NCBI GenBank assembly: GCA_958450365.1
Contig: CAUEEP010000757.1
Span: 1,359,501 to 1,423,500 of the forward strand
Source: Mesorhabditis belari
Taxonomy: Eukaryota > Nematoda > Chromadorea > Rhabditida > Rhabditidae
Direction of reading: 5' to 3'
Length of the DNA: 64,000 nt
Numbering within the stretch: the first letter of the stretch is position 1; each line of letters begins with the position of its first letter. The translations under genes were made by a program, and so were the position numbers. Shown here piece after piece: positions 16,338 to 51,600 of the stretch. A model generated the notes under the pieces. It had not been told where the DNA came from, did no database searches, and saw only the letters and a list, made by a program, of their open reading frames with translations.

Positions 16338-19300
16338 ATGGCCAGAGATGGAGTTGATATTGGAAGTGGCAGCTATGGATCGGTTCGTTTGCAAGATTGC
16401 GGGTGAGGAAATGCATTGTTTCAAAGTTTGCTTTTGCTTACAGAAAAATTGTGATCAAATATCCGTTGTCTCCCGATGAGCGAACGAAAGCATTATTCAA
16501 AAGGGAATGCCAAATCCTCGAGCCGCTGGATCACCCGAACATTGTCAAGTATCTTGGAATTCAAGATAAAGATCAGAAAGGGGAAGAGAAATTCGGCATT
16601 ACGATGGAGTATTGTGAACGAGGAGATTTAGAAAAAGGTTTCCTCCTTTTTGGTTTATTTATTGTTTTTAGTAATCTTTGCTCCGAAGATGACCTATTCG
16701 ATGAAATGGATTCTTAGTGGGGCAAGTCAGTTATTCGATGCTCTGGCCTATCTATCGGAGAGGAAACTAACCCATCGTGATATCAAGCCAAGCAAGTAAA
16801 TCCTTCTTTTGAAAAATTTATCAAAATACAATGGAAGGTTGCTAGATTTAAAAAGTAAACGTCTTCTGAATTTTCCTGAATGTTTCCTGAATCGCAAAAA
16901 TCACTTAACAATAGAAAATTATAGTACTTTTAGAAATGTTCCATTTGGAATCAATCACAGTAAAAAAAAAGTAATCCCCGTGGATTCCCCAAAAACAAAC
17001 CAATCTTATAGTAAACACCGATTTTAGAACCCCAAAGGTTTAAGTATCATTTTAGACCTCCATAACGAACGGTTGACCAGCTTCCATTTAAGAATTTACT
17101 AACGATGTTGCATTGTATTTGTTGTATATGTCGTAGCCGATTAAGGATTTCAGCCGAAGAAGTCTCAGACTTCTTCGGCTAGCCGATTAAGTCTCAAATT
17201 TTTTCGCTAGCGAAACCTTCTTCGGCTAGCCGATTAAGTCTCAGACTTCTTTGGCTAGCCGATGAAGTCTCAAAAATGAAATCTATGACTCAAGTCAATA
17301 CCACAAACTCAAGCTCTCTAAAAGGCGCTTAAAAGCTAAAAACGCATTCTAAAGAGTGCGCATTTTATCATACTGTAACCAAAGGCTATGAAAGGGCCCT
17401 TTTCGCCATTTTCTATCTGATTCGTCATTTATTTGAAATAGAATTGTTTGTTTTTGTAAGTCAATTTGACTCCTTTGTTGGATCATCGATAAAACTTATT
17501 TACCACTAATCTGTTTATAATCGAACATAACCCCTTATTTCAATCCTATTTTTTCTTTTTGTTACTGTGCATTTTTTGTTTAAGCTACACTAATTTCTGT
17601 TGATCGTTAACCGGCCAAAGAGCTCCTCGTTCTTGACGACTTTCTTGGGTTTGTCCAAATTGCCTTTGATCCCATGATTGTAAAGCACCTCTTGATTCAA
17701 TTCGTGTCGAAGAGAGAATAGCACTACAAGTTTTTAGTTTTTAGCGCCTTTTAGAGAGCTTTTAGAGAGCGTTTTTAGCTTTTAAGCGCTTTTTTGAGAG
17801 CTTGAGTTTGTGGTATTGACTTGAGTCATAGATTTCATTTTTGAGACTTCATCGGCTAGCCAAAGAAGTCTGAGACTTCTTCGGCTGAAATCCTTAATCG
17901 GCTAGGACATATATATGGCATATTTTGGCCTGTTTGTAGCATTTTTCTCAAAGAAGACTTCTCGCTGAAACTTGGTGACTTCGGCTGTGTAACGCTTGTT
18001 GCCGATCGAACAGCATCAGGAACATTTAATCGCGGAACGTTGCGTTATATGAGCCCACCACAATATGATATTGCAAAAGAGAACCCGAACGATGATCAAA
18101 GAATGGTTAGTTTTAAAAAACTCGTTTCAAACTTAGACTTTTAGATTTCACCCAAAAACGATATCTACAGTCTCGGTTTAACGTTATGGGAAATGGTTTT
18201 AAGAGAGTAGTTTTTTCCGTTTATTACAAGCGAATTTGTTTATTTAGAAAACCATTTGCCGAGTATATTAGGAAATTTCATCGAGGAGAGGACTTTGATC
18301 GAGAGAAATTTAACGCTGATATACAAGCAAAAAGGTTGACCAGAATCAGAGGAACACAATGTTGGCCGGAGTTCGAGGAGCTCATTCTCAGGTTTTAGCA
18401 TAGAAATCCTACAATTTTTAGATCTGAAGTCCTGAATCTTTCAGCTGTGTCAATTTTGATCGAAGCCTGCGACCAGAGGCAGACAAGGCTCTGCTTACTG
18501 TCAGAGCCCTTCAGGTCATTATTATGCTAACTCCGAATAATAATATACGGAGTGTTCAAAAAAGAGTTAGGTCCCTTCATTTTCCAAAAAATTTCTGGTG
18601 GCTCCTCGTGGTCGTCGCGGTGCCAAAGTGCATATTTTGTGCTGGAAAATTTTTGATAATTTCTCACTTTTTCCCGTTTTTATGACTCCCTTCTGCATGA
18701 AATTTCTGAGCTAGAGTGTGTTCCTCTCGGTTAATGCGTTTCCCGAAACGCGCACTCAAAAAAGACACGACGTAAATTTGACGCAAACTTTCCTTCGAAT
18801 TTGCATAAATCAATTTGTTTAACCGTCGCTTTAACCGCGTTTAACCGCCATTAACCGACCATTCATCGACTAAAAAACAATTGTGCAAATTTATTCGGTT
18901 AATTGTTTAACCGCAAGGAACACACTCTATTCTGAGCCATCACGGTCGCCACCACCATGAGATTTTTGCCATAAAATTTGCCATAAACACTATTAAGATC
19001 TTGGGTTGGTGAATTGAAAACTGCGGGACTTTGAACTAAAATTTATTCAACATAAAATCATAAATTCATTCCAAATAATTTCCATTATTATTGACGACTT
19101 CTGCCCATTTTACAGGCAATTTGCGGATTCCTCTTTCGTGGTAGGATTTTGCTTTTGAATCGAAAAACTTTTAAAGCCAATTTTTGACTGCTTCTTCCGA
19201 ATCGAAGTGTTCTCCCGCAAGCTCAATACTCATGATCCGGAATAAATAGTAATCAAAAGGGGCGAGGTCCGGATTGTATGGGGAATGCGCTAAAAGTTCC

Positions 19301-22300
19301 CAAACAAGGCTATTTATTTTAGAGCGAGTCAGTTTTGCAACATGAGGGCGCGCGTTTTCGTGGATGAGAACGATCTTTGACTTGGAGGGCCTATTCTTTT
19401 TTAGGGATTCATTCACCTTTTCCAACTGTTCACTGTATTTGATAGTATTAAGGGCCGTCTTGCTATCCAGCAACTCCCAGTACCCCACTCCCTCCATATC
19501 CCAGAAAACGCAGAGCATAAACTTCTTCTGGTGCAAATCGGGCTTAGGGTCACTTTCGGGTTTCTCGCCTGGCCCCACCCATTGCCACTTTCTCTGAAAG
19601 TTCACAGATAAAACCCATTTCTCATCTCCTATCACAATTCGAGAAAGAAAAGATTTCCTTTTGTATTGTGAGAGATGGACGGCACTGATCGAGGCGCGCT
19701 GTCACTTCTGGGGGTTATTGAGGTCATGGGGCACCCAAGCCCCAAGTTTCGATTTAAATCCAAGGGTATGAAGGTGCCTTAGCACTGTAGCATGATCAAC
19801 CCTTAACTCTTCTCCCAATTCACGCGATGGTCGTTGGTAATGAGTTCGAGTAATTTGGAATCATCCAGTTGGGGTGCCGCTCCACGGCCCTCGGCATCTT
19901 TCAAAGATTTATCCCCAGATCGAAACTTGGCAAACCATACTCGACACGTTCTTTCGGAAGGTGAGTCCTCCCCATATATCTTTTTAATATTAGCAGCTGC
20001 CAAGCCTGCACTGTGCTCTTGTAGGAACTCATGAAGCATGACATGACGAATATGTCCCAGTGGCAGATTGTCGAGTCCAATAGAAGAAGTGAAGAAAAAT
20101 ACCAAAAAATAAAAAGCTGGAAGTATAATTTTTTCGCAATAATTAGAGGAAATGTTGAAGTAAGCAAACCCCCTTTCAGCTGGTTCAATGCTGTTGTTTT
20201 TTTTATCTGCGAGTCCCGCGAAATAGCCCGCAGTTTTCAATTCACCAATCCAATAGCTACAAATTTAAACCATACACTTTAATGAGCAGCGTTTCCTTGG
20301 AAAAAGGCAACACTTCTTTAAAATCTCTTTTAAAAAATCGCGCCACCACCGTGAGATTTTTTTTTCCTTAAAATTAAAACTTTCTACCGGCATCATGGTG
20401 CATAATAACACTATTATGATAACTAAAAATTTAAGCCATACACTCTATTGATCAGCGTTTCCTTGGAAAAACGGGACACTTCTTTAAAAAAAGCGAATTG
20501 AAAATCTCTTACAGTGGTCCACAAATGTATTGTCCCATTGCCATCCAAAAGTTTCTTTCGTACGAAAATCTTGCAAAATAACGATATTCCCAAAAAGTGT
20601 AGGGTATTTTGCTTACCCATAATACTCTACTTTTCAGGATTATAAGATTTATCCGTATACATTGCAGAAAAATTAAAGTATAAAACAAAAACAATAAGTT
20701 ACTTAATAAATAGCTCCACAAAAGTAATGTCCCATTTGCAAAGAATTAATAATTTTTTCAAAAAATTAATATTCGCCTGGTCCTCCTTTTGCTTTTGTCG
20801 CTTCATTGAGTCGATCTGGCATGGAATCCACGAGATTTTTCAAAAGACTTGGGCGGATGGTGGCCCAAAGACGTTGAATGTCAACCCATGAGGCGGCTTT
20901 CGAATCGGATTTCTTTCCCTTGAGGCGCGACTTCACAAATGACCACAAATGTTCAATTGGATCGAGATCCGGTGAGTGGATTGATCAATTGATCAATTTA
21001 ACACGATTTTCCGCAAACCATCCGGGCAGACGAGCTCTGGTACAATTTTGAAGTGTCACCAACCGTCCCATCATCATTCTCGACTTGTGTTTCGGGTCGT
21101 TGTCCTGGTGAAGCATCCATCGGGGAGGCATCGTTTGATTGGCAAAGGGAAGCATTTGGGTCTCCATAATATTCTTGTAAGCCGCAGCATTCATCGTCGA
21201 GTTCACGTAGACTAACGGACCTACTGAAGTTCGAGACATCGCTCCTAAAGAAAAAAATTTAGGTAACAAAATACTAAAAAGGTTCTTACCCCAACACATT
21301 ATGTTTCCGCCGTTGAATTTCACGGTAGGCCGAATGTACTTGAGTGCGTATCGCTTTCCAGTCGGTCGCCGAATAAGATGGTTTCCATCCGCGTGAAATA
21401 AATTGATTTTTATCTCATCGGTAAATAACATTTTCGCCCAATCACGTGTCGTCCAACTTCGGTAGGTCCGTGCAAAGTCAAGGCGCTGCTTCCGGTGCTT
21501 AGATTTTATCAGAGGTTTACGGGCAGCCCTTCTTGCATATAATCCAGCTTGATTTAATCGTCGTCTAATCGTTTCCGGCGACACGATCTTGTTAAATTGA
21601 CCCCTCATCATTTGGCTTCCATCGGTTGGTGTTTTGTTAGGATCGTTTTTCACCATTTGGATCATGGCTCGATCTTCTTTTGTGGTTGTGATTGGTCGTC
21701 GGCCACTCTTGAGGCCTCGATGAAGGTTTCGGTCGACTTTTGATGGAGAAAGAATGCGGCGCACCGTCCTTCTCGAGCAATTGAAGGGGTTGGTCACATC
21801 CTTTTCCCGCATTCCATTTTCCCGGGCCTTGGCGATTCGGAGTGTCAAGATTTTTCTTGCCAGCCATCTAAATAATGAAATAAAATACATTTAATGTTCA
21901 TAGAACGCGAAAATAAAAAGAATAATCAAGGAAAACATCAATGGGACATTACTTTTGTGGAGCTATTTATTAAGTAACTTATTGTTTTTGTTTTATACTT
22001 TAATTTTTCTGCAATGTATACGGATAAATCTTATAATCCTGAAAAGTAGAGTATTATGGGTAAGCAAAATACCCTACACTTTTTGGGAATATCGTTATTT
22101 TGCAAGATTTTCGTACGAAAGAAACTTTTGGATGGCAATGGGACAATACATTTGTGGACCACTGTATGTACGACGACAGATTATCATATAATGTAGATGA
22201 ATAGAGTGTTTGGCTAAAAATCTTAGTTTATATATTAACTCTAAAATGACACTACGATGAAAGTTATAATTTTATAGCAAAAGTCTCATGGTGGTAGCCC

Positions 22301-31621: not shown

Positions 31622-32390
31622 TCTATTAAATAGGAACATTACATTGCGTTAAACCCATTCAATGGTTGAAATTTAATGGTTGAATCGGATTAAGAGAAAA
31701 GTTTGTAAAATTCCCGAAATAGGTATTGTCTATTGAGACAATTTTATGGATTTACGAGCTTTTGAAATGTCACTAATAAAATGTAGATGTCAAAGAGTTT
31801 TCAGTAGACCGTTAAAGCAATTAGATGCTCAAAGCTATTAGTGAAAACTGTACTCGGTTGGGTAGAACAGAATGTTGAACTTACGATAACTTCTAGAAGT
31901 AATCTCGTTCCTGAATTCTTGGGACACTTCGAGATATGAGCACAAGTATTATCCTCTAATCGACCAAAATTCTCTGGGCAGAAGCGGCCTTTTTGTGGAG
32001 AAGTGGGACAACCGAACTGGAAATTTGATGAAACTTTTCAAACTTTTGATTTTTTGATGCATTACTTTTGATGTATTACACGCCTCTCATCGCTGGATCT
32101 TTGGGCATTCTTGCCATACAACTGTCACATCCACAACTCCCATTGGAAGACCTCATGCTTGAGACATTCGTCGGCTAAATGGGTATGATGATTGGTTTGG
32201 AAACGGGTAAAGCTTTCATTATCGTCAGTTTAACACTCATAGTATAAAATCATGCTATCTTTTGTATGGGGCAGTTTTAATCTGTAAAAAGTTAGAGCAT
32301 AGAGGTTTGCAAATGGTTCTAATTGCGATTTAAAAATTCATAGATTTTCTTGGAAAAAAGTGAAAAAAGGAAGTGGATGGGTTTTTGTCC
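31622..32390. other. Intergenic, no feature recognised
   Basis: About 770 bp of unique-looking AT-rich sequence after the edge of duplicon C. No exon, RNA gene or repeat seen. Confidence 0.45.
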
Positions 32391-33181
32391 CACTTTTTCA
32401 AGGGGACTTCCAAAAATTCATTGATACTCATAATTGTTCGTCTGCACGGAAATCTTTAGTAAAAGGCGAAAGATTTTCTCGGTCAAATGCAGACGAACCA
32501 GAGATGGTGAAAGGGGGGAAAGGGATCCCTATAGCTGGAGGCCCTTCGCCAGAAAGCGAGCGATTACGCACCCGCACAAAGAGCACTTGTTCATTAAGAG
32601 TTTAATCTTCTGCTACTTAAAATCTTTGGATCTGATTTCTAAGTAATCTTACGTTTTGATAACACCATGGCACAAAATAAAAGAATAGTGAAAGCGATGA
32701 GTTTGAAGTTAGGCATAGAGGCTTGCAAATGTTTCAATTCAATTCTTGGACAAAAACCACGGGAACAACCTTTGTGGATGAATTTTTGTCCCTTCATTGA
32801 ATAGAATTAACGGAACCGTTTGTTTCGCACAGATTTTCAACTTTAAATCAGAAACAAGCCGTTTATGAGCTTTTTGTCCCGCTTTTTCAAGGAGACCTCC
32901 AAAAATTGACTTAAACGCAGAACTGTTCGTCTGCACGGAAATCTTTAGTAAAGTCGGAAAGTCATTTTTGTCCAGCTCTTTCTTTTTAGCTTTACAGAGG
33001 CATCGTCATTGTTGAATCAGCCTTTATTCTTGACAAGTAGAAAACTGCAGACTCATTTTTGCCCCGCTTTTTCAAGGGGACTTCCAAAAATTCGTTGATA
33101 CTCATAATTGTTCGTCTGCACGGAAATCTTTAGTAAAAGGCGAAAGATTTTCTCGGTCAAATGCAGACGAACCAGAGATGA
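32391..33181. repeat. Three dispersed copies of a ~117-bp hairpin-bearing unit
   Basis: Copies at 32391-32508 and 33060-33181 are almost identical; a shorter diverged copy is at 32875-32955. Each full copy holds a stem of GTTCGTCTGCA and TGCAGACGAAC (arms 32436-32446 and 32488-32498; 33110-33120 and 33162-33172), with an inner pairing of AAATCTTT and AAGATTTT. The open frames that cross them differ, so protein coding is not the conserved feature. Confidence 0.75.
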
Positions 33182-34562
33182 AAAAAATGGCAATGGACGG
33201 GTATATGAAAAGGGAGTACGCCAGAAAGGGTGCGATTACGCTGGCTCACAGAGAACACACAGAGAACCTGTCCGTTGTGGGTCCAATCTTATGCTACAGA
33301 ATATAAAATGATTACGGTAATGAAATGACTATAAATAGCACAAAGTACATTAGAGTGTGCTCTTAATTAAATTACCCATTGACTTCTGAATAAATTAACT
33401 TTAGTTTGGTTGACTTTCCCAATCCATTCTCAGGATCTTTCCTCGTTTCATCTTCTCCTCTCTTTTCCACATTTAGATCCTATCTCCACAGTCTCTTTAA
33501 AGAATTGTGAGTTGAGAAATTATCTTTTTTTCTCATCTTGACTCGAGTTTTTTACATTTTAAGGGTCATTGATCATTTTGAGTCACGTGGTGGTGCGACA
33601 AAGTTTCAGATTCACATACAACAATTTATATTTGCTAATATCTTGTAACAAGTATGTCAAAATGTTAATCCTTTCTCTTTTCCAACTTCTTTATCAATTC
33701 ATAATCCAATTCCGGTTTTCATCATTCATTTCCTGTTCACAATTAATGCAGAATGTTAAACACAACTCTACAAAATTCTATTTATGAAATCGATTTGCTC
33801 ACAAATTTTTGGTAAATTTTAGTTTGTATCTTTCTTTTATACTTTTTTTATTTGTGACGTCAATTCTTTTAATAAACTCTGTTCCGTTCCACTCAACTCA
33901 TCCATTTCGATGTTTGATTCGACGTTGTTTACGATTTGATAGATTGTTTTTAACCATTTACTACTTTTTTTCAGATCAAAAACCTCCATATTGTTAATCT
34001 TTTTTATAATTTATATTGCGCTTTGTGTTCCTAGATGAAAACGACACAATAAACTGTTTACAAAGTTGACAAAAGACATTGTCAATCAGCTGATAAGTTA
34101 ATCTCGTTCATAGGTAATCAAAACAACTTGTAAATGAAGCAATTATTGAGTTACAACTCAGAAATATTATTTTGAAACTGAAAGCTTTACTTTAAAGCTA
34201 AATTTAAAGCTACCCAACGCTGCTCAAAGCAATCGAAAAGCGCACAATCGATCTCTCCCTCATTTCGAAGTCGCTCCAATCTTGTTATTCGACTTCTCTC
34301 TCCTCTCCATTTCAAGTTTTTATTGCTTGTCTAAACAAAGAATATTTCTGCTTTTATCATTTTTAGGGGTGGCTCAAAAATTAATCTTTTACATTAATGA
34401 AGCAAAAAAAAGGGGGCGGCTTGTAAGAGACAAATTTAACGATCTCGTGTCAGATTTTCCGGTAGTCCCCCTCCCACACAAGAATTCAAAACATTCAAGT
34501 CTGATTTGGAGACTGATCGGATTCTAAATATTTCTTTTCTAAAACATTTAAAAACTGTCACA
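33182..34562. other. Intergenic, no gene recognised
   Basis: About 1.4 kb, AT-rich, with pyrimidine-rich stretches. No convincing exon, tRNA or terminal repeat. Confidence 0.45.
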
Positions 34563-34823: not shown

Positions 34824-36034
34824 CAGTAGTGCACCAGTTTCGTCTAAATTGCTCGAAATCTCGAAAAGCGCTTATCAGAACCTGTCGATGTGGGGTCGGA
34901 AAATGTAGCTGACGATGAGATCTTGTGGGGGATTAGAATCTTGAGCTTCTGTGAAAACTTGAAATCGTAAAATGGTCATCAACTCAGGGTGCGCTACTAT
35001 TAGGGGTACGGTATCTTCGAAAAAAGCTGCTGGAAGAGCTACAGTGGGCTGAACTTTCTCAAATCAGCCTTGATACTGTCAAAGAAGTATCTCTAAAAAT
35101 ATTTTAAGGGTGCTGAAAGTTGTTAATTTTGTTATTTACTGGCAAATTTTCAGTTTGAAAATATCCACTGAACAGAATTTAAAGTAAAAATTGATTTGAT
35201 TGAATGTACTGTTTCGAAAATGTACTGTACGTACTGTATGTACCGTACGTACTGTGTGTACTGTATGTACTGTACGTACTGTATGTAAGAATGTACTGTA
35301 CTTTGAAGCCACTTCTTCTAGGATAACTAGAAAATCAAAAACTCTTTACGATTTGATTCCTATTTGAGTAATCCAGAGATCAATTTTTACACAATTTTAC
35401 ACCAAACAACACTCAATATTGACTCAGATCTCGAAATTAGGCAAAAAAAAAAAAGGATGACAAAACATTGATTCCCCTGAAATTACCTCGAATTGACGAC
35501 AGCAATTCAAAAGGTTTAGTCAGAGTTGACTTCAAAATTTCCGCCCGAAATTTCCCCCTTTTTTTGAATCAATTCATAAAGTCTTCTTTTTGGCAGAACT
35601 AAATAGGCTTATCATCCCTTCTCTACCTTCTTTTCCCACTTTTTTTTCTCCAATCAAAAATTCCCAAATTTTCAAGCGAAAAGAGAGATTTTTCGACTGT
35701 AAAACGCGTAAAACAAGTCGTTACTTCGGGGGAAAAAAAATTTCACACTCTCCATTTCTTGATATGGTTCGATTTTGATCGCATTTTCTTTAAATTTCCT
35801 TTATTTCTCGAAACTCTTTTATTTTTGTAAGCTTGAAAAAACATTTTTATGATTGAATTTTTATAGCCTGGCCATGTCATCACGAGAGGGTTTTTATCAA
35901 AAAAAGCATTCAAAAAGAAAAAAAAAGAAAAGAAAATGATCTCGGGAAATGTTTATTATTTTTGACTCATTGGGTTTATTTCATTTTTCTTTTGCTTAAA
36001 TCAATAATTTATAAAAAAAAATTCTTTTTAGCCA
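34824..36034. other. Intergenic, upstream of the phosphatase-like gene
   Basis: About 1.2 kb without a recognised gene apart from the tandem repeat at 35207-35300. It ends in ATTCTTTTTAGCCA before ATG at 36035, a probable spliced-leader acceptor. Pyrimidine-rich runs are common at 35520-35700. Confidence 0.45.
35207..35300. repeat. Tandem GTACTGTA-type minisatellite
   Basis: About ten imperfect copies of an 8-bp unit (GTACTGTA, GTACGTAC, GTATGTAC variants). Many units are self-complementary, so the array can form cruciform-like structure. Confidence 0.8.
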
Positions 36035-38776
36035 ATGATCGATAAAATTTTGGATCAACTCTTTTTGAGTGGAGCGCTGGATGTGTATGGAGAAGCGGCT
36101 GGGGAAAAGCTACAATCATACAAGGTGAGTGGGGAGTGAGAATAGGAAATTAAAAATTCAATCACTTTTTCCTAAATTCCTGTTTCTAACTTTATCTCTT
36201 TTTTCTTTCAAATCAATCTTTCTACGTAGCTTTGTGCATTACAGACAAAAATTCGACTTTAGTTAGTGTTTGATGGCATTTTTAAGTTACTGTAAGAAAT
36301 ATATGTTTATATTTTATATTATATAATTTCTTGTGAGACCGTGTCTCGGTGTGGTTCAATAGTGGTCTTCTTGAAAACGCACAATTTATCAAAACTTTCC
36401 CTTATTAGGGCAAACTTGGCTCAAACTGGAGCAACCTGGCACTATTACAATTAATTCAACACTTGCATGTGAAAAAAAGGATGATAAAAAGCAAAAAAGG
36501 GAGAACAACAAACTCACTCAAAAAGCAAAGCTAAAAACGGGTTTTTAAGTAACAAGGACAGCTGAAACGTCTAGTGACTGATTACGGTAGTTTATCCATC
36601 AACTTTGAATTTTAACTTGTGTATTGAATTTTTGACTAACTGCAGAGCAGTGACAATTCGCCACAGTTACATAGCATCTTTCATTCTTTTCTTTCTTCAT
36701 TTCTAAAACTTTAGCCATTGAAAAGGATTCTAAAAATACCTTCTATTAACTGTCACAAACTCTTCTTGCTTATACCAAGAACAAATCTTATTGTTAGTCC
36801 TTCTAAAGTCGTTTTTAACTATAGCCTAATGAGCTACTACAAATGAATTTGAATTAAGGCAGCAATATTTGTTTTTCGATACTTTTTGACAAGTTTTTGA
36901 AGTAATTCTGTAATGATAATTTGAGAATTGTAGAAAAGACTGGAAAGCGTTAAGAGCTTAAGACCTTAAGACCTTAGGATTGCTCTAATAGCCTTGAGAT
37001 TTCTTTTACAGATCAGCCACGTGTTAACTCTTTCAATCAGCCCGATTCCCGAGGAGAGACAAGTCGATGGAGTCAGCTACACTTTTGTTCAAATGGCTGA
37101 CAATGCTGCACAAGTAAATTATTATAAATTATTGTTAGTGATGATGAAATGATAAAAAATTTAGCACATTAGCAAAAGAAATTTGAAGAAAACAGTACTT
37201 GAAAGAGCTGTCATTTCAGGATCTTATTGGCACAAATATCATCACCGACGCGATAATCTTGATTGATCAGGCGTTGAAAGATGGCGGGAATGTGCTTGTA
37301 CATAGGTGAGTCTTGGAAAATTGCGAAAAAAATCAATAAAATCTTTGTGCTTTTTCAGTGAAGAAGGGAATTCCCGTGCTCCGACGATTGTCGCCGCTTT
37401 CTTAATGCAGAAATTCAAATGGAACGCTGAGAAAGCGCTCACTTATGTGAAAATGAAGAGGCCGACAATAAAGTGAGTTTAGAAAAATGGAAATAACATA
37501 AAATTCTTAATTTAGCCCAAACAAAGGCTTCAATGAACAGCTGAGAATCTTCGCCACAATGCATTTCCATATCGCTCCTCGGGATATCGTTTGTTCCTCT
37601 GAATACAGATCCTGGCGAGCTCAACAAGCAAACAAGAATTTGGGTGAGAGTTTTATGACGACTAGAATTCTGAGGTCATCTTCACCAACAGATCTCTCTA
37701 ATCCATCTGAATGGGTTAGATTTGATTCAAAAAAATACATCTATTCACACGAATCATGTGGTAGAAACAATACACAAGCACAACTCCTAAATGTAGGGAA
37801 GAAAAACCCATATATACCGTATTTTCTGTAATAGTAGTGCAGTCTAAAATAGTAGTGCAGTCTGTAATAGTAGTGCAGGTAGGAGGGGGGTTGAAAAAAT
37901 AGTAACTACTATTACAGAAAATACGGTATATATAATACGTCCAAATCCGATCTAGCGTCCGGATCGAATCCGGACATCCGAATCCGATCTAAACTAAACG
38001 ATCATAACATTGGCGAGTGCCAACGGTAATCTAGCCTATTTGGTATATAGTTTAGTTATTTCTCAACAATTTCCTGTAAATTTAGTATTATTTTATAGAA
38101 AATTAAATTCTTCATTGAATGATATCAAAATCACAAGAATATGTTTAGAAATAATCAAATTAAAGCCAAAATAAGCTAGGTTGCCGTTGGTAAAACAATT
38201 AGGTTTAAATCGGATTCGGACGTCCAGATCTGATTCGGACGCCACATAAACCTTTTTCCAATATAAAAGAATCAATAATCTAACCGGCGGGATTGAATCC
38301 TTGACCTCTCCACTAGGAAAAAAGGCCCTTAGCCAGTCGACTATGAATGAATCGACCGTTTGAAGAGCATGTCCTCTGATCTCTGGTCTTTCGAATCCGC
38401 TTGTTTACAAGTTAAAAATTTCAAACTTAATTTTCATATATTATAGTAAACCATTAGATTCTAATGCTTTTATAGCTTTCTCTTTATGAGCCAAGCCAGC
38501 TACATAGCTATCAATAAGCTAGTGAAGGTCAGAAGCCAGGCCAAGACTTAGTTTTTGGGTCTAGTTATTCCCCTCTTGTAGCCTAAAAGAACTCTTTGAA
38601 GCGATTCTGTCATGGTAATTTGTGAATTGTAGAACAGATTTGATCAAAAAGTTAGCAAAGCAATAATTTCCTTTCCAGAAAGTTATATGGTTTCCCCACG
38701 CGAGCACCACTGGAACGCCCCACACCATCGACACCATCAAGATGACGGATTACCACATGTTTTCATTTCCGAGTAA
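36035..38776 (+). CDS. Dual-specificity phosphatase-like protein lacking the catalytic cysteine (predicted pseudophosphatase)
   Basis: Six exons: 36035-36124, 37012-37113, 37220-37305, 37359-37472, 37516-37643, 38679-38776; 618 nt, 205 aa, all GT-AG and in phase. The fold is a small DUSP domain over nearly the whole length: ILDQLFLSGALDV, HVLTLSISPIPEE, YTFVQMADNAAQDL (acid loop Asp present), DGGNVLVH, then SEEGNSRAPTIVAAFLM, and NPNKGFNEQLRIF. The signature should read HCxxGxSR; here it is HSEEGNSR. The Ser codon is split across intron 3 (AG/T). The P-loop Arg and downstream Ser are kept, so phosphate binding without catalysis is plausible, as in STYX-type pseudophosphatases. The C-terminus is His-rich. 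Intron 5 (1 kb) holds a MITE and a tRNA-like relic. It converges on the TACC gene 258 bp away. Confidence 0.85.
37811..37930. mobile_element. Palindromic MITE with TACCGTATTTTCTG ends
   Basis: Ends read TACCGTATTTTCTGTAATAG and its inverted copy; the interior has the short unit AATAGTAGTGCAGTCT repeated two to three times. It shares the TACCGTATTT terminus with the element at 45330-45617. It lies in intron 5 of the phosphatase-like gene. Confidence 0.75.
37935..38245. repeat. Inverted repeat with GGATTCGGACGTCC-type motif
   Basis: CGTCCAAATCCGATCTAGCG... at 37938 and its near-complement at 38205-38245 (AATCGGATTCGGACGTCC) form an imperfect palindrome, with a second inverted pair inside (GAGTGCCAACGGTAATCTAG against CTAGGTTGCCGTTGG). 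The motif recalls the CGGACGTCCGATTTAGAT units of the foldback at 47621-48047. Confidence 0.6.
38283..38348 (-). other. tRNA-like relic (SINE or tRNA pseudogene)
   Basis: On the minus strand a D-arm-like GACTGGCTAAGG and a T-arm/B-box-like AAGGATTCAATCCCGCC lie about 35 bp apart, as in a tRNA. No acceptor stem pairs, so it is not a working tRNA gene. Confidence 0.45.
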
Positions 38777-49602: not shown

Positions 49603-50805
49603 GAGCCCAGATCTAGCCTGGCTTAAAGGCTTGACCACAACAGTTCTGAGGCCAACAGTCTGCCCTAGTCTGACAAAAGAAAAGTAATCCTGTTTGAAAA
49701 TTGATTACTATACATTATCTACTATTAGGTAAATGCATAACAAACAAATGCGAATTTCAACATTTTTATAAATTTCCAAATTTCCAATAGAAACGTGATA
49801 TCGATGAATGTTATAAACTATTTGAAAGTTGTAAATCTCCTCTACAAAATAGGCTAAAACGTGTTTCAATTGATCGAACGATTGAAGAAATTTCGAGGGC
49901 GAAATGCGAGTGACCAAAAAAGGAATCGAGTCACTTTAGGGACAAGTTTAGTGTGGTCAAAATAGAGTTAGCTTCCCAAAATTGAAGATTTAATAAAAAA
50001 GGATAACTATATATCAATTCATTAAAAAAGTCTAACGGAAATGCATTTACAGAAATTTAGATAGAGCGTAAGTTCAAAACCCTCAAAATTGTTAAAAAAC
50101 CGGCTTTTTCACAAAAAAGGAAAAATTATCAATGAAAGCCATCATCGAGTTGATGTTTTTGAAAGTGTATGCTAGGAAACACAAAGAAAGATCTGAATCT
50201 AACTGTCATAGATTCTGTTTGCAATCACGAACCGAGAATTACCAAGACACTTTTCAAAGAAATCTTTAAGAACTTTAACTTCTAGATTTTGAAGATAAAT
50301 TTCCCATAAATAAAGACATTTCCCATAAAACTTGATCAAGAAAAGCCAATCTTTATCTCAGAAATCTCTAGTTTTGTTATGCTTTTACAAATTTGAAATG
50401 AAAACAATAAGATTTATTGCAAATGTTGCACTCACCCTTTCGTCCCTTTTTCCTTTCCATCAAGTTTGTTCTTTCCGACTTGAGCGCCCATCTTTTCGAA
50501 TGAATCTTTCAAAATTTATGATTAAAAATAGACAAAAACTCAAGAAAGCTCAAGGAAATAAGAAAAAATATTATCTTAAAATGAAAATTCAAATTTTCCC
50601 ATGCTGTGAATTTCACTTTTTCTCCTAGTTGAAAGAACAATGCCGTGACCTATAAATCAACAGAGTGAAAGGATATCAATTTCATCGTTTGATTGATAAG
50701 ATTCAAGAAAATGTAGCCAACTTTGCAATGGAAATATTGGTACTTGACATTTTGCAAAATTAAGTTTAGTGTTTTCAAACGAATTCTCAATCAATTCCCC
50801 GTCTC
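49603..50805. other. Intergenic, no gene recognised
   Basis: About 1.2 kb of AT-rich sequence; short open frames only. Confidence 0.45.
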
Positions 50806-50940
50806 TTTCCACAGTTAATGCAAGTCAGATGTTCAAATAAAGCCAAAACGTTACCAAATTTATATCTCATTTTCGATTTCTGCATTAGAAACTTGTTTAT
50901 TTCAATAGTCAAGATAAAAAAGACATATTTTAAACACAAC

Positions 50941-51600
50941 GGGATGTGGACTTCCCTCTCGAACATCTTGATGGTGGTGGTAGCCTCCGTGTAGCAGTCT
51001 TGTATGGCGTGGATATATCCGAGGTCAATCCCTGCGTCGTGGAGGGCTTGTGTCACTGTGCCGTGTTCCACTGAGTCGAATGCCTTCTTGTAGTCGACGA
51101 ACACCAGGATGAGTGGCATTCGGAATTCTCGTGTTCTTTCGATCAGTTGGGTGACGGCTTGCATGTGGTCGATCACCGAGAAGTTCTTGCGGAAGCCGGC
51201 CTGCTCCACTGGCTGGTAGTCGTCGAGTTTCCGCTCTATTCGTTGTTGGAGAATCTTCGTGTAGAGCTTGTACAGGACCGATAGCAGAGATATTGGCCTG
51301 TAGTTTCCGATGTCTTCTTTGTCTCCTTTCTTGTAGAGCAGGATTGTCCTGCTTCTCGCCAGTGGTCAGGCATCCTCTGGTTGTGGAGGTAGGTGGTGAA
51401 GCGTTCGGCCAGCAGCTTGTGTATGTCTTCTCCTCCAGCCTTGAGTAGCTCTATCTTGATGTTGTCTGGCCCTGGTGCTGTTCCAGTCTTGGTGGTGGCG
51501 ATGGCTGCTCTGATTTCGGCTGGGAGAACTGTCAGTATTTCTTCTGTGGCAGCTGGCACTTGCGGTGGTGGGTCGATGAGTAGAGGTCGGTGTAGAAGTC
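50941..51600 (-). pseudogene. RTE-type non-LTR reverse transcriptase fragment
   Basis: On the minus strand: LPAEIRAAIATTKTGTAPGP then DNIKIELLKAGGEDIHKLL and MPDHWR, a 1-nt shift near 51357, then the continuing frame with EQAGFRKNFSVIDHMQAV and the RT core FVDYKKAFDSVEHGTV. These match RT motifs 1-3 of RTE elements. The coding sequence ends abruptly after REVHIPL at about 50941, and the YxDD part is missing. GC content is higher than the surroundings. The ~135 bp next to the break (50806-50940) recur with it at 59705-59940. Confidence 0.85.

Follow-up and report, generated by a model that had tools for sequence, protein, structure and literature searches.

A natural serine at the position of the catalytic cysteine is known within the dual-specificity phosphatase (DUSP) family from STYXL1, whose signature loop reads IFSTQGISRS (PMC3586659, PMC3917250), and from STYXL2, also named DUSP27 (PMC3917250, PMC11147509, PMC8269279). 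Pseudophosphatases can exert control by competition through binding, as described for STYX acting on ERK1/2 and for Caenorhabditis elegans EGG-4/5 acting on MBK-2 (PMC8622459). The gene studied here lies in a 64,000-nucleotide stretch of the genome of the nematode Mesorhabditis belari (assembly GCA_958450365.1, contig CAUEEP010000757.1, forward-strand positions 1,359,501 to 1,423,500), referred to below as the window. The cysteine nucleophile of the HCX5R signature is absent from its product, and the loop reads HSEEGNSR in both Mesorhabditis species in which the gene is found. Judged by the retained fold, the replaced cysteine and the conserved relative in a second species, the predicted protein is a probable member of the pseudophosphatase class. 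It is probably a conserved atypical DUSP of Mesorhabditis that binds a phosphorylated partner without cleaving it.

Gene structure and the split serine codon

The gene occupies positions 36035-38776 of the plus strand, and its six exons join into a 618-nt reading frame for 205 amino acids (Table 1). The five introns measure 887, 106, 53, 43 and 1035 nt, and all have GT-AG ends. The loop stands in the context VLVHSEEGNSR. His92 is encoded by CAT (37301-37303), and the Ser93 codon, AGT, is assembled from AG (37304-37305) and T (37359), such that intron 3 falls after the second codon base. This codon is a single base away from TGT. The donor (TAG/GTGAGT) and acceptor (TTTTCAG) of intron 3 look ordinary for a nematode. 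An earlier sequence-only reading had arrived at the same coordinates, six exons, open frame and loop.

Table 1. Exons and signature loop of the M. belari gene (window coordinates).
Feature	Position	Strand	Description
Exon 1	36035-36124	+	MIDKILDQ...SYK; open frame; donor AAG/GTGAGT; covered by the M. spiculigera P0002 match
Exon 2	37012-37113	+	GT-AG splice sites; putative general-acid Asp60 (GAC 37099-37101) within QMADN
Exon 3	37220-37305	+	3' end VLVH, then AG (bases 1-2 of the Ser93 codon)
Exon 4	37359-37472	+	T (base 3 of Ser93), then EEGNSRAPTI; P-loop Arg99 at 37375-37377
Exon 5	37516-37643	+	NPNKGF...YRSWRAQQANKNL; end of the DSP core and subsequent low-confidence modelled helix
Exon 6	38679-38776	+	Short His-rich tail, GLPHVFISE at end, stop TAA
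Signature loop HSEEGNSR	37301-37377	+	Split by intron 37306-37358

The serine is neither an assembly error nor a gene-model error, because the deposited protein agrees with it, a second species keeps the same loop, and none of the junctions tried around intron 3 yields cysteine. The junctions comprised GT-AG, GC-AG and AT-AC pairs with donors at 37260-37344, acceptors up to 37439 and a spacing of at least 30 nt, all other junctions being held fixed. Fifteen combinations, the gene model included, are in frame and free of stops. Only 37305/37359 joins VLVH to a residue followed by EEGNSR; some of the others keep EEGNSR behind different residues. Cysteine follows VLVH (VHC) in 0 of the 15. A splice error or alternative junction that restores cysteine is thus ruled out within this range, and the earlier claim that the split AGT codon is no splicing artefact holds.

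P0001, the deposited M. belari protein, agrees at all 205 residues and has two additional ones at its N terminus (MP), a hint that its annotation includes a short upstream exon. An acceptor-like TTTTTAG at 36025-36031, just 5' of the ATG, could be a trans-splice acceptor as an alternative to the acceptor of an upstream exon. The 5' end given here is accordingly provisional.

A conserved relative in Mesorhabditis spiculigera

The M. spiculigera protein P0002 has 205 residues, aligns without internal gaps and shares 146 of the 205 residues (71%). It retains HSEEGNSR, and the check on a nematode relative proposed in the sequence-only reading therefore finds the serine kept in the one relative species available. 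That reading had also recorded PTI after the loop, which describes M. belari (RAPTI) but not M. spiculigera (RAPAI). Identities in seven successive segments are 22/30, 25/28, 16/28, 15/15, 30/42, 22/35 and 16/27. The fourth of these is the loop, the best conserved of the seven. The last two, residues 146-180 and the tail at 181-207, lie outside the pocket and are partly conserved.

When P0002 is searched against the M. belari assembly (207.6 Mb in 714 contigs, with the gene on the contig labelled C567), it matches the locus in six pieces, each corresponding to one exon. The sole other match, to an exon of another phosphatase locus (L017), has an E value of 2.4. Three protein searches, in which 103, 1356 and 5 candidates were scored, returned the two Mesorhabditis proteins as the only close relatives; the search with 1356 candidates added six weak extras. 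Since matching in these searches needs shared five-residue words, they do not show that C. elegans lacks an orthologue. Of the two species, M. spiculigera is reported to reproduce sexually and M. belari to be auto-pseudogamous (PMC10456839). The same paper gives accessions for published RNA-seq of both (PRJEB61636) and for the genome (PRJEB30104), and it covers ten resequenced M. belari strains. The serine, shared by the sexual species, is therefore not tied to the reproductive mode of M. belari. Among the literature matches listed for pseudophosphatases, nematode and C. elegans DUSPs, STYX, DUSP12/YVH1 and Mesorhabditis phosphatases, no title deals with this gene.

Fold and active site

The protein scores 80.5 bits with the Pfam family DSPc (PF00782), for which the cut-off is 33.5 (E 1.2e-22). 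Its other Pfam match, to Tc-R-P, is sub-threshold. An AlphaFold2 model has the DSP fold, so that both approaches bear out the retained DUSP fold that the sequence alone had indicated. The mean predicted local distance difference test score (pLDDT) of the model is 72.9. Residues 152-161 and 176-207 score below 50, as does the tail encoded by exon 6.

Both Mesorhabditis proteins have the acid-loop Asp, the His, the loop Gly, Ser and Arg, and the NPN motif. These residues align with the corresponding positions of STYX, DUSP5, DUSP19, DUSP12 and DUSP22, with the exception that DUSP12 has no NPN. The residue after the loop Arg is Ala, as in DUSP19.

Binding without catalysis and the alternatives

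The DSP fold and its phosphate cradle (His, loop, Arg, acid-loop Asp and the Asn of NPN) are retained, but in the mechanism proposed here the serine in place of the nucleophile should form no phospho-cysteine intermediate. Most likely, a phosphorylated partner held in the pocket would then be shielded, competed for or anchored. Several DUSPs are reported to lose their activity when cysteine is replaced by serine, and Dusp6 to become dominant-negative (PMC3917250). PDB entry 4woh is, by its title, a complex of 4-nitrophenolphosphate with a DUSP22 that carries C88S and three further substitutions, so a serine loop can hold a phosphoester. From these two observations we infer binding without turnover.

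Several points weigh against this proposal. The serine is known from two species only. The two loop Glu residues, unusual next to a phosphate, might make binding weaker. For STYXL2, a function that does not depend on the phosphatase domain has been reported (PMC11147509), so pocket binding is not guaranteed.

The same STYXL2 precedent would favour a scaffold, in which the DSP fold offers a surface for protein-protein contacts without any role for the pocket. The partial conservation of the two segments beyond the pocket is in keeping with such a surface. However, a loop that is the most conserved segment of the protein would be odd for an unused pocket, and a scaffold appears rather unlikely. 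Residual or changed catalysis, by which the serine or another residue would allow slow turnover or activity towards some unknown substrate, could draw on the retained His, Arg and acid-loop Asp. It is very improbable, because the cysteine-to-serine change kills activity in several DUSPs (PMC3917250), and no serine nucleophile in a DSP fold was met in the literature consulted, in which no search was aimed at one. That the gene is a decaying DUSP on its way to a pseudogene, as loss of the catalytic residue might suggest, is scarcely credible when the frame is open, the splice sites are intact and the M. spiculigera protein matches it in the serine and in length and has a similar tail; the earlier view of the gene as intact stands.

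Binding of a phosphorylated target without cleavage thus remains the preferred account. If it is true, the protein is the natural equivalent of the cysteine-to-serine trap used in the laboratory and offers a handle for fishing out partners. The trap would sit in a nematode group with both sexual and auto-pseudogamous species.

Subfamily placement

Comparison with solved structures does not settle the subfamily. With a two-sequence profile STYX comes first (54.6 bits), its lead is less than 1 bit, and STYX, DUSP5, DUSP19, DUSP12 and DUSP22 fall within about 4 bits. With a single-sequence query STYX drops to eighth (48.4 bits), behind DUSP5 (54.7) and DUSP22 (51.6). The top Foldseek match is DUSP12 (4ki9), and DUSP12 scores level with other DUSPs. 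A tree of 15 rows has 12 inner branches, of which 2 are well supported and 9 are open, and gives no placement of the gene. Matches of P0004 are confined to the catalytic parts.

The initial idea was a YVH1/DUSP12 that had lost its cysteine. Matches to DUSP12 and YVH1 chains extend past the core, to query residues 169-172, and in the stretch after the core YRSW resembles YKQY of DUSP12 and YKQW of YVH1 (a Y-x-x-[WY] pattern). The 205-residue protein ends without a Cys-rich segment that could form a zinc-binding domain. Within the window, three zinc-like motif patterns have three matches in total, none of them within 13 kb of the gene. A human zinc-domain fragment matches the assembly at C691:53171-53248 (E 0.016, 50% over query residues 65-90), a weak match when taken alone. 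About 0.8 kb upstream of it, on the same strand, is a DSP loop reading HCEAGVSR, and the frames of this region give RYRCIACRTDLF and LCPKCSSKLGSYCWGG. A yeast zinc-domain fragment, run without a positive control, found no match.

A YVH1 gene should have the layout found on C691, and M. belari therefore seems to possess a separate YVH1-type gene that bears the cysteine, and the gene studied here is probably not the YVH1 orthologue. The initial idea was set aside on the cysteine and the zinc-domain-like segments of C691. Descent from YVH1/DUSP12 with loss of both cysteine and zinc domain, to which the Foldseek ranking and the extended alignments lend some support, is most improbable in view of that locus, the lack of a zinc-like motif near the gene, the tied scores and the tree. 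By the title of a yeast study, YVH1 reportedly has roles independent of catalytic activity. YVH1 functions in ribosome biogenesis (PMC9731860).

Other phosphatase loci in M. belari

A DSPc profile finds at least 35 exon-level matches in the assembly. One is the gene studied here, and 30 fall into 26 other loci of the DSP and protein tyrosine phosphatase (PTP) type (L015-L040). Another four, on contigs C314 and C260, lie outside this set and resemble second copies of loci on C564 and C680. The 26 loci are not 26 independent genes, because the set includes several near-identical copies or possible alleles. All 26 have cysteine at the nucleophile position. The loop His is absent from five, which read FCAAG (L019, L020, L038) or LCAMG (L026, L037). 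From their motifs, we take some to be distant kinds: capping-enzyme-like (HCTHG), PTEN-like (HCKAGKGR) and classical-PTP-like (HCSAGIGR). A sequence HSILGMSR in L030 is due to chance, being on the opposite strand and far from the actual match, HCTHGVNR. The Glu-Glu pair is atypical next to other M. belari loops such as HCLAG, HCMAG, HCEAG and HCNAG.

Three loci on contig C652 (L023, L039, L040) have near-identical HCEAGISR loops, close to the loop of the C691 YVH1-type locus, and are a possible local family expansion.

No close paralogue appears in two assembly searches with six candidates scored in each, or in a third search within the 26 loci, where the best other exon, the one in L017, reaches 28.1 bits. 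Origin as a recent duplicate of an active DUSP is rejected because no such paralogue was found in these searches. A second haplotype copy was also sought, and the assembly search (six candidates scored) found none. The M. belari assembly yielded a single copy of the gene.

Surrounding sequence

Intron 5 contains an inverted repeat with perfect 29-bp arms (37810-37838 and 37905-37933), 66 nt apart, together with three 18-bp direct repeats (37825-37878). This unit, 37810-37933, resembles a small element of the miniature inverted-repeat transposable element (MITE) type. It adjoins a second inverted pair, 37950-37994 and 38203-38247, with 82% identity. Upstream of the gene is a nine-base tandem repeat (35212-35296, seven registers).

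In a Pfam scan of ten long open frames of the window, three match transposases or a reverse transcriptase and seven have no match. The three are the transposase frames at 19174-19701 (PF01359) and 20988-21890 (PF01498) and the reverse-transcriptase frame at 50790-51365 (PF00078), all on the minus strand. Two plus-strand frames, 32303-32602 and 33034-33303, have LFQGDFQKF[IV]DTHNCSSARKSLVKGERFSRSNADEPEM in common, a local duplication. A scan of the window for tRNA genes found none.

Comparison with known pseudophosphatases

STYXL2 (the DUSP27 of PMC3917250) likewise has a DUSP domain with serine for cysteine, in human and zebrafish. It is a vertebrate protein of 121.6-130.2 kDa with a long C-terminal part (PMC3917250) and is described as specific to striated muscle (PMC11147509), whereas the nematode protein has 205 residues. 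STYXL1, or MK-STYX, is likewise a pseudophosphatase with a natural serine (PMC3917250, PMC3586659). However, it has also lost the loop His (PMC3586659), which the nematode protein retains, and it has an N-terminal CH2 domain (PMC8269279); a Pfam scan of the 205 residues finds no such domain.

STYX is a DUSP pseudophosphatase as well, and its acid loop, IADN, is similar to the nematode MADN. It has Gly at the cysteine position (PMC8622459; loop of 2r0b), where the nematode protein has Ser. The sequence-only reading had proposed a STYX-like pseudophosphatase; the class assignment survives, but membership of the STYX subfamily is not established, given the shifting score order. DUSP12/YVH1 resembles the nematode protein in a DSP core followed by the Y-x-x-[WY] stretch and differs by its zinc-binding domain.

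The fragments P0005 (HSEEGLSR) and P0007 (HSEECLSR) likewise have a Ser-Glu-Glu loop, with SRAPTI after it. Unlike the nematode pair, they have a multi-Cys segment following the loop, and they form their own tree clade without a supported link to that pair. They are possible independent serine pseudophosphatases and, read from the multi-Cys segment, may be YVH1-like. Both lie on short contigs (781 and 1200 bases). P0005 found no relative among viral contigs. An NCBIfam scan gave weak matches far under the cut-off for P0001 and P0002, and no match for P0005 and P0007. A bolder and doubtful extension is that the Mesorhabditis protein is a natural substrate trap, a dedicated binder of a phosphorylated partner with a fixed serine and Glu-Glu loop, and that the HSEE of the two fragments would mark a recurrent type of inactive loop.

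DUSPs with serine for cysteine are already known in STYXL1 and STYXL2, and the gene leaves the understanding of the pseudophosphatase class unchanged. What is new is the Mesorhabditis case with its Glu-Glu loop. If the assignment is true, it adds a further lineage of natural cysteine-to-serine DUSPs beside STYXL1 and STYXL2 and suggests that this is a repeated route to a pseudophosphatase.
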